The notes under the pieces: generated by a model
Seen by the model: the letters and a program-made list of their open reading frames with translations, nothing else
What the model was told of the DNA's origin: nothing
The model's database searches: none
In this document: piece after piece, positions 16,978-34,471 of the stretch
How positions within the stretch are numbered: the first letter of the stretch is position 1
How the letters are laid out: every line of letters begins with the position of its first letter
From: Ancylobacter amanitiformis
GTDB lineage: Bacteria > Pseudomonadota > Alphaproteobacteria > Rhizobiales > Xanthobacteraceae
Length of the DNA: 64,000 nt
Direction: 5' to 3'
Assembly (NCBI RefSeq): GCF_030814815.1
Contig: NZ_JAUSVR010000004.1
Span: 186,001-250,000, forward strand
Translations under genes and position numbers: made by a program

Positions 16978-18528
16978 ATGGCGACGAAGAGCGAAGCGGG
17001 GATTGTCCACAAGCCGGTCGCGCAGGAGGTGGCCGACCTCCTGCAGTCCCTCGGCGTTCCCCCGGCGTCCTGGCACGGCGGCACGCGCGCGGCGCGCTCG
17101 CCCATCACCGGCGAGATCACGGCGCATGTCGTGGAAGCCGAGGCGAGCGCCGTGTCCGGCGCGGTGGCCCGCTCGGTGGCCGCCTTCGAGGCCTGGCGCA
17201 CCGTGCCCGCGCCGCGCCGCGGCGAGCTGGTGCGCCTGCTCGGCGAGGAACTGCGCGCCCACAAGGGCGCGCTCGGCCGGCTGGTGACGCTGGAGGCGGG
17301 CAAGATCGTCTCCGAGGGCCTCGGCGAGGTCCAGGAGATGATCGACATCTGCGATTTCGCCGTCGGCCTGTCGCGCCAGCTCTATGGTCTCACCATCGCC
17401 TCCGAACGGCCGGGCCATCGCATGATGGAAACCTGGCATCCGGTCGGGCCGGTCGGCATCATCACCGCGTTCAACTTCCCCGTGGCGGTGTGGTCGTGGA
17501 ATGCCGCGCTCGCGCTGGTGTGCGGCAACAGCGTGCTGTGGAAGCCCTCCGAGAAGACCCCGCTCACCGCGCTCGCCGTGCAGGCGCTGTTCGAGCGCGC
17601 CGTGGCCGCGTTCGGCGGGGCGCCGGAAGGGCTCTCGCAACTGCTGATCGGCGGTGCCGAGGTGGGCGCCGCGCTCACCGACGATGTCCGCGTGCCGGTC
17701 ATCTCCGCCACCGGCTCCACCCGCATGGGCCGCATCGTCGGCGAGCGCGTGGCGCGTCGCTTCGGCCGCTCGATACTCGAACTCGGCGGCAACAACGCCG
17801 CCATCGTCTGCCCCTCGGCCGACCTCGACCTCACGCTGCGCGGCATCGCCTTCGCGGCGATGGGCACGGCCGGGCAGCGCTGCACCAGCCTGCGCCGGCT
17901 CATCGTGAACGAGAGCGTCTACGACACGCTGGTGCCGCGCCTCGCCAAGGCCTACGCCTCGGTCAGCATCGGCGATCCGCGCGACGCCGGCACGCTGATC
18001 GGCCCGCTGATCGACGCCGAGGCCTATGAGGGCATGCAGAAGGCGCTGGAGACGGCCCGCGCGGCCGGCGGCCGCATCCATGGCGGCGAGCGGGTGAGGG
18101 CGGACGCGGCGGCGGACGCCTATTATGTGCGCCCGGCCATCGTGGAACTCGACGCGCAGATCGACGTGGTCAAGCATGAGACCTTCGCGCCGATTCTCTA
18201 CGTGCTGCGGGTCGGCGGCCTGCCGGAGGCGATCAAGCTGCACAATGACGTGCCGCAGGGCCTTTCCTCGTCGATCTTCACCAGCGACCTGCGCGAGGCC
18301 GAGACCTTCGTCTCGGCGGAGGGCTCGGATTGCGGCATCGCCAACGTGAATATCGGCCCGTCCGGCGCCGAGATCGGCGGCGCGTTCGGCGGCGAGAAGG
18401 AAACCGGCGGCGGGCGCGAGTCCGGCTCGGATGCGTGGAAGGCCTATATGCGGCGCGCCACCAACACCATCAACTACTCGCGCCAGCTGCCGCTGGCTCA
18501 GGGCGTCTCCTTCGACGTCGAAGGCTGA
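16978..18528 (+). CDS. ALDH7-family aldehyde dehydrogenase (aminoadipate-semialdehyde type)
   Basis: 516 residues of the ALDH fold: NAD-binding FNFPVAVWSWNAALALVCGNSVLWKPSEKTP, catalytic Glu in ILELGGNNA and catalytic Cys in GTAGQRCTSLRR. The closest family by sequence style is ALDH7 (antiquitin/AmaB), which oxidises alpha-aminoadipate semialdehyde in lysine breakdown. ATG 16978 follows GGAGTGAAG. Its 3' end overlaps the convergent nitroreductase by 31 bp. Substrate inferred only. Confidence 0.9.
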   Translation: MATKSEAGIVHKPVAQEVADLLQSLGVPPASWHGGTRAARSPITGEITAHVVEAEASAVSGAVARSVAAFEAWRTVPAPRRGELVRLLGEELRAHKGALGRLVTLEAGKIVSEGLGEVQEMIDICDFAVGLSRQLYGLTIASERPGHRMMETWHPVGPVGIITAFNFPVAVWSWNAALALVCGNSVLWKPSEKTPLTALAVQALFERAVAAFGGAPEGLSQLLIGGAEVGAALTDDVRVPVISATGSTRMGRIVGERVARRFGRSILELGGNNAAIVCPSADLDLTLRGIAFAAMGTAGQRCTSLRRLIVNESVYDTLVPRLAKAYASVSIGDPRDAGTLIGPLIDAEAYEGMQKALETARAAGGRIHGGERVRADAAADAYYVRPAIVELDAQIDVVKHETFAPILYVLRVGGLPEAIKLHNDVPQGLSSSIFTSDLREAETFVSAEGSDCGIANVNIGPSGAEIGGAFGGEKETGGGRESGSDAWKAYMRRATNTINYSRQLPLAQGVSFDVEG

Positions 18529-24463: not shown

Positions 24464-27367
24464 CTATTCCGCCGCGGTGCGCGGCTTCATCGGCCGGCGT
24501 GCCAGCACATCGGCGAGGAATCGCCCGGTATGGCTGCGCTCGGTCGTGGCGATGACTTCCGGCGGGCCGGCCGCGACGATCTCGCCGCCGCCATCGCCGC
24601 CCTCGGGACCGAGGTCGATCACCCAGTCGGCGGTCTTGATGACCTCGAGATTATGCTCGATCACAACCACCGTGTTGCCCTGCTCGACCAGTTCGTGCAG
24701 CACTTCCAGCAACTTGGCGACATCGGCGAAATGCAGGCCGGTGGTCGGCTCGTCGAGAATATAGAGCGTGCGCCCGGTGGCCCGGCGCGACAGTTCCTTG
24801 GAAAGCTTCACGCGCTGCGCCTCGCCGCCCGAGAGCGTGTTCGCCTGCTGGCCGACCTTGATATAGTCGAGCCCGACGCGCGCCAGCGTTTCCAGCTTCT
24901 CGCGCACCGCCGGCACCGCCTTGAAGAACTCCGCCCCTTCCTCGACCGTCATGTCGAGCACATCGGCGATGGACTTGTTCTTGAAGGCGACTTCCAGCGT
25001 CTCGCGATTATAGCGCTTGCCCTTGCAGACGTCGCAGGTGACGTAGACATCCGGCAGGAAGTGCATCTCGATCTTGATGACGCCGTCGCCCTGGCACGCC
25101 TCGCAGCGCCCGCCCTTCACGTTGAACGAGAAGCGGCCCGGCCCGTAGCCGCGCGCCTTGGCTTCGGGCAGGCCGGCGAACCACTCGCGGATCGGCGTGA
25201 AGGCGCCGGTATAGGTCGCCGGATTCGAGCGCGGCGTGCGGCCGATCGGCGACTGGTCGATGTCGATCACCTTGTCGAGATGTTCCAGCCCCTCCAGCCC
25301 GTCAAGTGGCGCGGGCGGCTCGGACGCGCCGTTCAGCCGCCGCGCCACCGCCTTGTAGAGCGTGTCGACCAGCAGCGTCGACTTGCCGCCGCCCGACACG
25401 CCGGTGACGGCGGTGAACAGGCCGAGCGGAATCGAGGCCGTGACATTCTTCAGATTGTTGCCGCGCGCATTCACCACGCGCAGCATCCGCTTGGGGTTCG
25501 GCTTGCGGCGCTTGGGCACCGGCACGGTGAGTTCGCCCGTCAGGTATTTGCCGGTGAGCGAATTCGGGTTGGCGAGGATCTCCTGCGGCGTTCCCTGGGC
25601 GACGATGCGCCCGCCATGCACGCCCGCGCCGGGCCCGACATCCACGACATAGTCGGCGGCGAGAATCGCGTCCTCGTCATGCTCGACCACGAGCACCGTG
25701 TTGCCGAGGTCGCGCAGGCGCTTGAGCGTGCCGAGCAGGCGCTCATTGTCGCGCTGGTGCAGGCCGATCGAGGGTTCGTCCAGCACATAGAGCACACCGG
25801 TGAGCCCCGATCCGATCTGCGAGGCAAGGCGGATGCGCTGGCTCTCGCCGCCGGACAGCGTGCCGGAGGCGCGGGCGAGGGTGAGGTAATCCAGCCCGAC
25901 ATCGAGCAGGAAGGCGAGGCGCTCGCGAATTTCCTTGAGGATGCGGACGGCGATCTCGTTCTGCTTGTCGGTCAGCCGGGCCGGCAGATCGGTGAACCAC
26001 GCCAGCGCGTGGCGCACGGAAAGCTGCGCCGACTGGCCGATGTGATGGCCGGCGATCTTCACCGCCAGCGCCTCGGGCTTCAGCCGGAAGCCATGGCAGG
26101 CGGCGCAGGGCACGGCGGAGAAATACTTGCCGATCTCCTCGCGCGCCCAGTCGCTCTCGGTCTCCCGCCAGCGCCGTTCGAGATTGGTGATGATGCCCTC
26201 GAAGGTCTTCGAGGTCTCGTAGGCGCGCATGCCATCATCATAGACGAAGCGGATCGCCTCCGCGCCGGAACCGTGGAGAATCACCTGCTGCGCCTTGGCC
26301 GGAAGATCCGCCCACGGCACGCTCAGCTTGAAGCCGTAATGGCGGGCCAGCGCATCGAGCGTCTGGCCGTAATAGGGCGACGAGGACTTGGCCCATGGAG
26401 CCAGAGCGCCCTGTTTCAGCGAGCGCGTCTTGTCCGGCACCACGAGGTCCGGGTCGATCTTGCTCTCATGGCCGAGCCCGTCGCAGACCGGGCAGGCGCC
26501 GAACGGGTTGTTGAAGGAGAACAGCCGCGGCTCGATCTCGGAAATCGTGAAGCCGGAGACCGGGCAGGCGAACTTCTCCGAGAACAGGATGCGGCGCGCC
26601 TCGCCGTTCTCTTCTTTCTCGTCGGCGAATTCCAGCACGGCGATGCCGTCGGCGAGGCCGAGCGCGGTCTCCAGCGAATCCGCGAGGCGCCCGGCGATAT
26701 CGCCCCGCACCACCAGCCGGTCGACCACCACGTCGATGTCATGCTTGAACTTCTTGTCGAGCGCGGGCGCGTCGGCGATCTCGTGGAACTCGCCGTCGAT
26801 CTTGACGCGCTGGAAGCCCTTCTTCTGGAACTCGGCGAGTTCCTTGCGATATTCGCCTTTGCGCCCGCGCACCACCGGCGCCAGCAGGAACAGCCGGGTC
26901 TTCTCGGGCAGGGCGAGCGTGCGATCGACCATCTGGCTGACGGTCTGGCTCTCGATCGGCAGGCCGGTGGCGGGGGAATAGGGCACGCCCACCCGCGCCC
27001 AGAGAAGGCGCATGTAGTCGTAGATCTCGGTGACGGTGCCGACCGTCGATCGCGGATTCTTCGAGGTGGTCTTCTGCTCGATGGAAATGGCCGGCGACAG
27101 GCCGTCGATCTGGTCGACGTCCGGCTTCTGCATCATTTCGAGGAACTGGCGCGCATAGGCCGAGAGGCTCTCGACATAGCGCCGCTGACCCTCGGCATAG
27201 ATCGTGTCGAAGGCAAGCGACGACTTGCCGGAACCCGACAGGCCCGTGAACACGACAAGGCTGTCGCGCGGGATCTCGAGGTCGACATTCTTCAGATTAT
27301 GCTCGCGCGCGCCACGAATGGTAATCGATCGCGCATCGCGACGCGGAGAAATCGCGCGTTCCTTCAT
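24464..27367 (-). CDS. uvrA: excinuclease ABC subunit A
   Basis: DNA-damage sensor of nucleotide excision repair. 967 residues with two ABC modules: Walker [10 protein letters not shown] near residue 43 and GVSGGGKST in the second half, signature [12 protein letters not shown] and [11 protein letters not shown], plus zinc-finger cysteine pairs (CPVC, CAAC, CEAC, CDVC). Start set at ATG 27367; a TTG eight codons upstream is less likely. Likely transcribed with the small membrane-protein ORF from the LexA-controlled region. Confidence 0.98.
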
Positions 27368-27449
27368 TCCGAGCTCTTCTTGCCGGGTCAACTAAAACGG
27401 GCGGCTGGACGCAAACCTATCGCGGGGCGGCCGCCCGTCCCGACGAAGC

Positions 27450-27608
27450 TCAGAAACCGTGCCACACCACGGCAAGACCTGCAGCCACGGCAAGTCCGGC
27501 GGATACGGCCATGAACGCCCGGCGGATCATCGCCTGACGCAGGTCCTCCATACGGATCGCCAAAACACGGGGCTGGGCACGGCGACGGTTGCGCGGATCG
27601 TTCATCAT
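27450..27608 (-). CDS. small single-span membrane protein downstream of LexA box
   Basis: 52 residues: a basic N-terminus (MNDPRNRRRAQPRV) and one membrane helix at about residues 31-50. Start at the upstream of two adjacent ATGs. It sits about 100 bp from a LexA box, and its stop lies 82 bp before the uvrA start, so both may share an SOS promoter. No homologue recognised. A role like SidA, the SOS-induced membrane division inhibitor of Caulobacter, is speculation. No strong ribosome site, so coding status is uncertain. Confidence 0.5.
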   Translation of the reverse strand: MMNDPRNRRRAQPRVLAIRMEDLRQAMIRRAFMAVSAGLAVAAGLAVVWHGF

Positions 27609-27709
27609 GGCACGACGCTCTGGTTGCTTCACGAGGAGAACATAGTGCGCATCCCGCGCCGCGCAATCCGGTGACTCCGTATGTTGCATCGAGTTAATCA
27701 TAATGCTAG

Positions 27710-27724
27710 GAACATAACAAGAAC
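27710..27724. promoter_or_regulatory. LexA (SOS) box, GAAC-N7-GAAC
   Basis: GAAC at 27710-27713 and GAAC at 27721-27724 with exactly seven bases between. This direct repeat is the alphaproteobacterial LexA operator (GTTC-N7-GTTC on the other strand). It lies between the leftward small ORF/uvrA unit and rightward ssb, a classic SOS location. A TATGAT word on the minus strand at about 27690-27700 could be the leftward -10 element. Confidence 0.85.
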
Positions 27725-27894
27725 AGTTTGCTGCTGATGTCGCGGGGCGGGCGCGGCAATGTGTGGACAAGGCGCGGGCAGGGCGCGGGCAGGGCGCGCG
27801 GCGGTGGCGAGCTGGGCTATAGAATACGCGTTTTGGTAATGGCTGGTTTTGGCAGGGCGCGCACCGCGGTGGGCGCCGGACTTCGGAGGAGATG

Positions 27895-28476
27895 ATGGCG
27901 GGCAGCGTCAACAAGGTGATCCTGATCGGCAATCTCGGCCGCGATCCGGAAGTGCGCACGTTCCAGAATGGCGGGCGGGTGTGCAACCTGCGCATCGCCA
28001 CCTCTGAGACCTGGCGCGACAAGGCCACCAGCGAGCGCAAGGAGCGCACCGAGTGGCACAGCGTGGTGATCTTCAACGAGAACCTGCTGCGGGTCGCCGA
28101 GCAATATCTGCGCAAGGGCAGCAAGGTCTATATCGAAGGCCAGCTGGAAACCCGCAAGGCGACCGACCAGTCGGGCGGCGAGCGCTATTTCACCGAAGTG
28201 GTGCTGCGGCCCTTCCGCGGTGAACTGACCATTCTCGACAGCCGCGGCAGTGGCGGCGGCGAGGGCGGGGAAGATTTCAGTTCCGGGAGCAGCGATTTCG
28301 GTTCCGGCGGCGGCTATTCCGGCGGCGGTGGTGCGGGCGGTGGCGGCTCGGGCGGGCGCTCCTTCGGCGGCGAGCGTCGGCCGGCGCCGGCGAGCGGCGG
28401 CGGCGGCGGCGGAAAATTCGGCGGCGGTGGCGGCAGCAGCGGGGGCGGCGACCTCGACGACGAAATCCCGTTCTGA
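27895..28476 (+). CDS. ssb: single-stranded DNA-binding protein
   Basis: 193 residues: an OB-fold (1-~112, [36 protein letters not shown]), a long Gly/Ser-rich linker, and the C-terminal tip DDEIPF that recruits repair and replication partners. GGAGG at 27885-27889 fits ATG 27895 better than the adjacent ATG 27892. Divergent from uvrA with a LexA box between, so SOS induction is expected. Confidence 0.98.
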
Positions 28477-33916: not shown

Positions 33917-34471
33917 ATGATCCGCAGCCTTTTCGCCGCTCTGGCCCTGACCTTCGCGCTCGCCCTGCCGGCGGCCGCGCAGGCGCCGAAGCTGCCGCCG
34001 AATGTCGATCCGCAGAACGCGATCATCATGGAGACCACCAAGGGTCCCGTGATCTTCGTGCTGCGCCCCGACCTCGCCCCCCAGCATGCCGAGCGTATCA
34101 AGACGCTGGCGCGCGAGGGCTTCTACAACAACGTGCCGTTCCACCGCGTGATCGAGGGCTTCATGGCCCAGACCGGTGACGGCCAGTTCGGCAACGGCAC
34201 CGGGGGCTCGCGCTACCCGAACCTGCCGGCGGAATTCTCCAAGGTGCCGTTCACGCGCGGCACCGTCGGCATGGCGCGCGCCTCCAGCCCGAACAGCGCC
34301 AATTCGCAGTTCTTCATCACTTTCGGCGATGCCTCCTTCCTCAACGGCCAGTACACCGTGATCGGGCAGGTGGTCTCCGGCATGGAGAATGTGGACAAGC
34401 TCAAGCGCGGCGAGCCGGTCTCCAACCCGGACAAGATCATCTCGATGAAGGTCGCCGCCGACGCCAAGTGA
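33917..34471 (+). CDS. secreted cyclophilin-type peptidyl-prolyl isomerase
   Basis: 184 residues: signal peptide of about 22 residues ending AAAQA, then a cyclophilin domain (FHRVIEGFMAQTGD with the catalytic Arg, SQFFI, SFLNGQYTVIG). Acts on prolyl bonds in the periplasm. Codons 68-98 are almost identical at DNA level to the same stretch of the next gene, although the two proteins differ elsewhere. Confidence 0.95.
   Translation: MIRSLFAALALTFALALPAAAQAPKLPPNVDPQNAIIMETTKGPVIFVLRPDLAPQHAERIKTLAREGFYNNVPFHRVIEGFMAQTGDGQFGNGTGGSRYPNLPAEFSKVPFTRGTVGMARASSPNSANSQFFITFGDASFLNGQYTVIGQVVSGMENVDKLKRGEPVSNPDKIISMKVAADAK

Follow-up and report, generated by a model that had tools for sequence, protein, structure and literature searches.

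In the window, i.e., the whole 64-kb stretch of DNA that was analysed, uvrA and ssb are arranged divergently, and the gap between them holds a LexA-type box, two promoter-like elements and a small open reading frame (ORF), which is located between the box and uvrA on the same strand as uvrA. The features are as follows:

24464–27367, minus strand: uvrA, start codon ATG at 27367
27368–27449, minus strand: spacer between the ORF and uvrA, predicted to form a stem (−36.3 kcal/mol for the window copy)
27450–27605, minus strand: small ORF of 51 aa, coordinates including the stop codon (based on translation, 20 syntenic relatives, selection, hydropathy and an AlphaFold2 single helix)
27639–27666, minus strand: promoter-like element P2, with a −10 that is aligned in 29/30 genus members
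27692–27720, minus strand: possible promoter P1 towards the ORF and uvrA, a conserved block beside the box with a weak match to the consensus
27710–27724, no strand assigned: LexA-type box 1, reading GTTCTTGTTATGTTC on the uvrA strand, conserved in the genus
27892–28476, plus strand: ssb (Pfam SSB, E 5e-34)

The initial annotation had described a 52-codon ORF with a basic head and one membrane helix on the uvrA strand. Such an ORF has been found, and only its start has been refined. The minus-strand frame 27450–27608 translates as MMNDPRNRRRAQPRVLAIRMEDLRQAMIRRAFMAVSAGLAVAAGLAVVWHGF followed by a stop codon, and the alignment with relatives, whose ATGs coincide with the second of the two ATGs in the window copy, places the start at this codon (27605) and the length at 51 aa, with the upstream ATG at 27608 as the alternative. 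The length differences among the relatives are whole codons. In most informative ORF pairs dN/dS has been found to be ∼0.12–0.3, with a scatter up to ∼1 in very close pairs that hold few differences, and nine separate close pairs contain 80 synonymous and 50 nonsynonymous differences, which corresponds to a ratio of ∼0.25 (p = 3e-15). The constraint is strongest at residues 19–29 and weakest at both ends. A chance open frame might be suspected in a G+C-rich region with many long open frames. However, an ORF of comparable size with a membrane helix has been obtained in only 0.6% of shuffled gaps, per given strand, and this low rate, together with purifying selection on the frame, puts the ORF far beyond chance; considering also the aligned starts and the whole-codon length changes, we regard a chance frame as ruled out for practical purposes. 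The small ORF is thus, judged by its pattern of substitutions, a real gene under purifying selection.

The ORF has been searched for in 61 genomes, 30 of them members of the genus Ancylobacter. It has been detected in 20 of these 30 (E 2e-29 to 2e-8), always between ssb and uvrA and on the uvrA strand, so that the conservation of the frame in relatives, on which the earlier proposal itself had been staked, has held. When a tree is built from the N-terminal region of UvrA, the 20 carriers fall into a single clade, which is moderately supported (82/76). Three further members (L064, L065 and L073) carry at the same place an ORF whose ∼60 residues comprise a basic head and a helix; measured against shuffles, these ORFs do not resemble the family significantly in sequence. 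By place and topology alone they are probable diverged orthologues of the small gene, because such an ORF arises in so few shuffled gap strands and none of 20 gaps from outside the genus contains a basic-plus-helix ORF at this place. The ORF is absent from seven of the 30 genus members, and in 198 genomes of the family and 199 of the order that were searched with profiles, no syntenic relative has been detected outside the genus; the weak profile matches obtained there have been rejected as homologues, and none of them adjoins ssb or uvrA. A plasmid homologue has not been found either. The best reading of this distribution is a gene restricted to Ancylobacter. Since the small gene is missing from seven genus members and from all other genera examined, SOS and uvrA can in general function without it.

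The encoded protein shows a simple and well-preserved architecture. In the window copy, a head of charge +6 is followed by 19 hydrophobic residues (Kyte-Doolittle 2.06) and a tail of 3 residues. All 20 copies share this layout: the net charge of the head ranges from +5 to +7, a single hydrophobic stretch spans 19 residues (mean hydropathy 1.9–2.7), and the tail comprises 3–7 residues. AlphaFold2 predicts a single helix spanning residues 4–50 with a mean pLDDT of 82, so that by hydropathy and by structure prediction the product is a small protein with a single membrane helix, as in proteins of the SidA type. From the hydropathy and the positive-inside rule, according to which the basic end of a membrane protein stays inside, we infer a single-pass protein of 50–55 residues, whose basic N-terminus would lie in the cytoplasm and whose helix would cross the inner membrane and leave 3–7 residues outside. 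Next to the membrane the protein carries a conserved segment E-D-x-R-Q-A-x-x-R-R, which would be a likely contact surface for a partner. R28-R29 are invariant within RRA[FIL][LM]A, located before the hydrophobic stretch and resembling a twin-arginine motif; Tat models match the protein at E 0.08 to 0.9, which is not significant, and an exported passenger is absent. The predicted membrane protein matches no named family: searches of curated families and the PDB have given no significant match (best E Pfam 0.081, NCBIfam 0.039, PDB 0.14), and the best PHROG value (E 0.0086, from one of 19 members and to an unnamed family) is likewise not significant.

The exact GAAC-N7-GAAC box claimed earlier between ssb and uvrA is present as GAACATAACAAGAAC at 27710–27724 and is the sole such motif in the window. 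As 1.04 matches are expected in shuffled 64 kb, i.e., about one by chance, the match alone proves nothing. Across the whole genome, 61 + 58 matches to the box pattern have been counted versus 27 + 27 for the reversed control pattern. Box 1 becomes convincing by its position and by its conservation across genomes, not by the match itself: 30/30 Ancylobacter genomes examined have an exact GTTC-N7-GTTC within the ssb–uvrA gap, 18/20 genomes from other genera, families and orders have one either there or upstream of uvrA, and within the gap box 1 is the most conserved stretch. In E. coli one LexA box, located 170 nt from ssb and overlapping the −35 of uvrA, serves both genes (PMC9505508), and uvrA of Caulobacter belongs to the late SOS genes (PMC12700426). 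The region described here resembles that of E. coli in its divergent ssb and uvrA and in a single LexA box at a similar distance from ssb (167 nt in the window); based on this arrangement and on the SOS response of Caulobacter uvrA, LexA control of the ORF and uvrA is likely. Unlike in E. coli, the gap additionally holds the small gene, which is conserved, and another promoter-like element. To our knowledge, no small gene lies between the LexA box and uvrA in E. coli. For LexA in the bacterial group studied here, no paper has been found.

Both promoter-like elements and the LexA-type site upstream of the ORF are conserved in relatives. The candidate P1 consists of a −35 TTGTTA (27720–27715) inside box 1, a spacing of 17 nt and a −10 TTAACT (27697–27692), and its conserved block comprises box 1 and ∼45 adjoining nt. 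An overlap of LexA box and promoter would exist only at this −35, which belongs to a weak match, and a promoter scan has reported no promoter. P2 consists of a −35 TTGCGC (27666–27661), a spacing of 16 nt and a −10 TATGTT (27644–27639), which lies 33 nt from the ORF start in the window and aligns (as TATGTT or TATCTT) in 29/30 genus members, including those that lack the ORF. Since all conserved promoter-like elements of uvrA precede the ORF, the latter would most simply be the first cistron of the uvrA transcript, as judged from order and spacing, and transcription from P1 and/or P2 would make the small protein together with UvrA. As a separate observation, most relatives (L003–L020) have a tiny inverted repeat GGGA-N4-6-TCCC over the likely ribosome site before the ORF, which is absent in the window copy.

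P2 itself is devoid of a LexA box. In the two nearest outgroup genera (L074 and L076) a second LexA box, GTTCGGCTTACGTTC and GTTCCTGATACGTTC, respectively, covers the uvrA-proximal −10, whereas in Ancylobacter the left half of this box has 2–4 mismatches of 4, and P2 is probably no longer under direct LexA control. The locus shows a rearrangement of LexA boxes, with two in neighbouring genera and one in Ancylobacter. As a consequence, SOS control would have to act via box 1, and expression of the ORF could be constitutive. The small protein might then be a membrane protein produced steadily from the P2-driven uvrA transcript, with a housekeeping role apart from SOS, and the box might serve ssb only. 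This reading draws on the missing box at P2 and on the position of box 1, which in the window precedes the P2 −10 by 66 nt. We regard it as rather doubtful, since uvrA is LexA-controlled in both E. coli (PMC9505508) and Caulobacter (PMC12700426) and since the strongly conserved box 1 could cover the P1 −35. With slightly better than even probability, LexA bound at box 1 would instead repress at least one of P1 and P2, so that DNA damage would raise the level of the small protein.

The position directly in front of uvrA also raises the question of whether the ORF is a leader, i.e., whether its translation sets translation or transcription of uvrA via an intercistronic stem and the peptide itself matters little. 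All copies indeed have a predicted G+C-rich stem in the spacer that separates the stop codon of the ORF from the start of uvrA, with CTCGCCGGGC...GCCCG...CCGGCGAG in most relatives. However, no compensatory changes have been found in this stem across the copies and its z-scores are only −0.8 to −3.2, for which reasons a structured RNA between ORF and uvrA has been rejected. Moreover, the amino acids are conserved across the whole middle of the protein and the C-terminus is one of the parts under the weakest constraint, unlike in an arrest peptide. Considering the weakly constrained C-terminus and the stem without compensatory changes, we judge a leader-peptide role to be unlikely. No Rfam family has been detected in 27300–28000. 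One relative (L019) carries in the loop of the stem a ∼100-nt insertion with its own inverted repeats.

Among the systems described so far, the closest working model for a LexA-linked single-helix protein is DinQ of E. coli, a LexA-controlled inner-membrane peptide with one helix, whose ORF lies 139 nt downstream of its LexA operator (PMC3567139). Compared by description, both are small single-pass proteins linked to DNA damage (here by prediction) and encoded ∼100–140 nt downstream of a LexA site. DinQ differs from the 51-aa protein in the uvrA leader in that it is toxic and only 27 aa long, its gene is flanked by arsR and gor, and an antisense RNA, agrB, controls it (PMC3567139). A second comparison, again by description, concerns the small single-helix proteins SidA and DidA of Caulobacter, likewise an alphaproteobacterium, which act in the DNA-damage response, as is predicted here: SidA (29 aa) binds FtsW, and DidA (71 aa) acts on FtsN independently of SOS (PMC4211646). 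The small protein could accordingly be imagined as an SOS division inhibitor like SidA, whose helix would attach to FtsW or another late divisome protein and halt septation until repair is done. Its size class, its single helix and its linkage to a LexA box fit such a function, and unrelated small proteins of this kind recur, e.g., SidA, YneA, SosA and ChiZ (PMC4211646). However, nothing ties the small protein to division, and SidA is, as far as can be seen, unrelated in addition to its different length. We therefore consider a SidA-like inhibitor to be of low probability, and the divisome as the specific target is just as unlikely.

Taken together, we favor with moderate confidence a new, genus-restricted, single-pass inner-membrane protein that is encoded as the first cistron before uvrA and is probably linked to SOS. 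The initial annotation had postulated an SOS-induced membrane effector made together with uvrA; of this, a real and selected gene, its location downstream of a conserved box and the anatomy of a first cistron have stood, while the SOS induction is weakened by P2, the promoter-like element nearest to the ORF, which has no box. The small protein may play a part in the cellular response to DNA damage. More tentatively, it would act as a membrane modulator in this response, of the DinQ or SidA kind, and bind another membrane protein by means of its helix and the conserved juxtamembrane segment. The farther-reaching idea that the uvrA operon has incorporated a genus-specific membrane effector of the SOS response, with one transcript yielding both nucleotide-excision repair and a membrane response, appears unlikely at present; if true, the membrane response would either arrest division or anchor repair at the membrane, and LexA control would have moved from a box near uvrA to the one that is shared with ssb. 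In any case, an unnamed and selected family of small membrane proteins adjoins one of the best-known SOS genes, which provides a precise candidate for a damage-response membrane protein in this group.

On the ssb side of the gap, a DnaA-box-like motif TTGTCCACA at 27762–27770 is conserved in the genus and appears as TTTTCCACA in two of the genomes (L067 and L068). The motif also occurs at 17003–17011 and 34390–34398, and the three matches to TTRTCCACA in the window compare with 0.16 expected.
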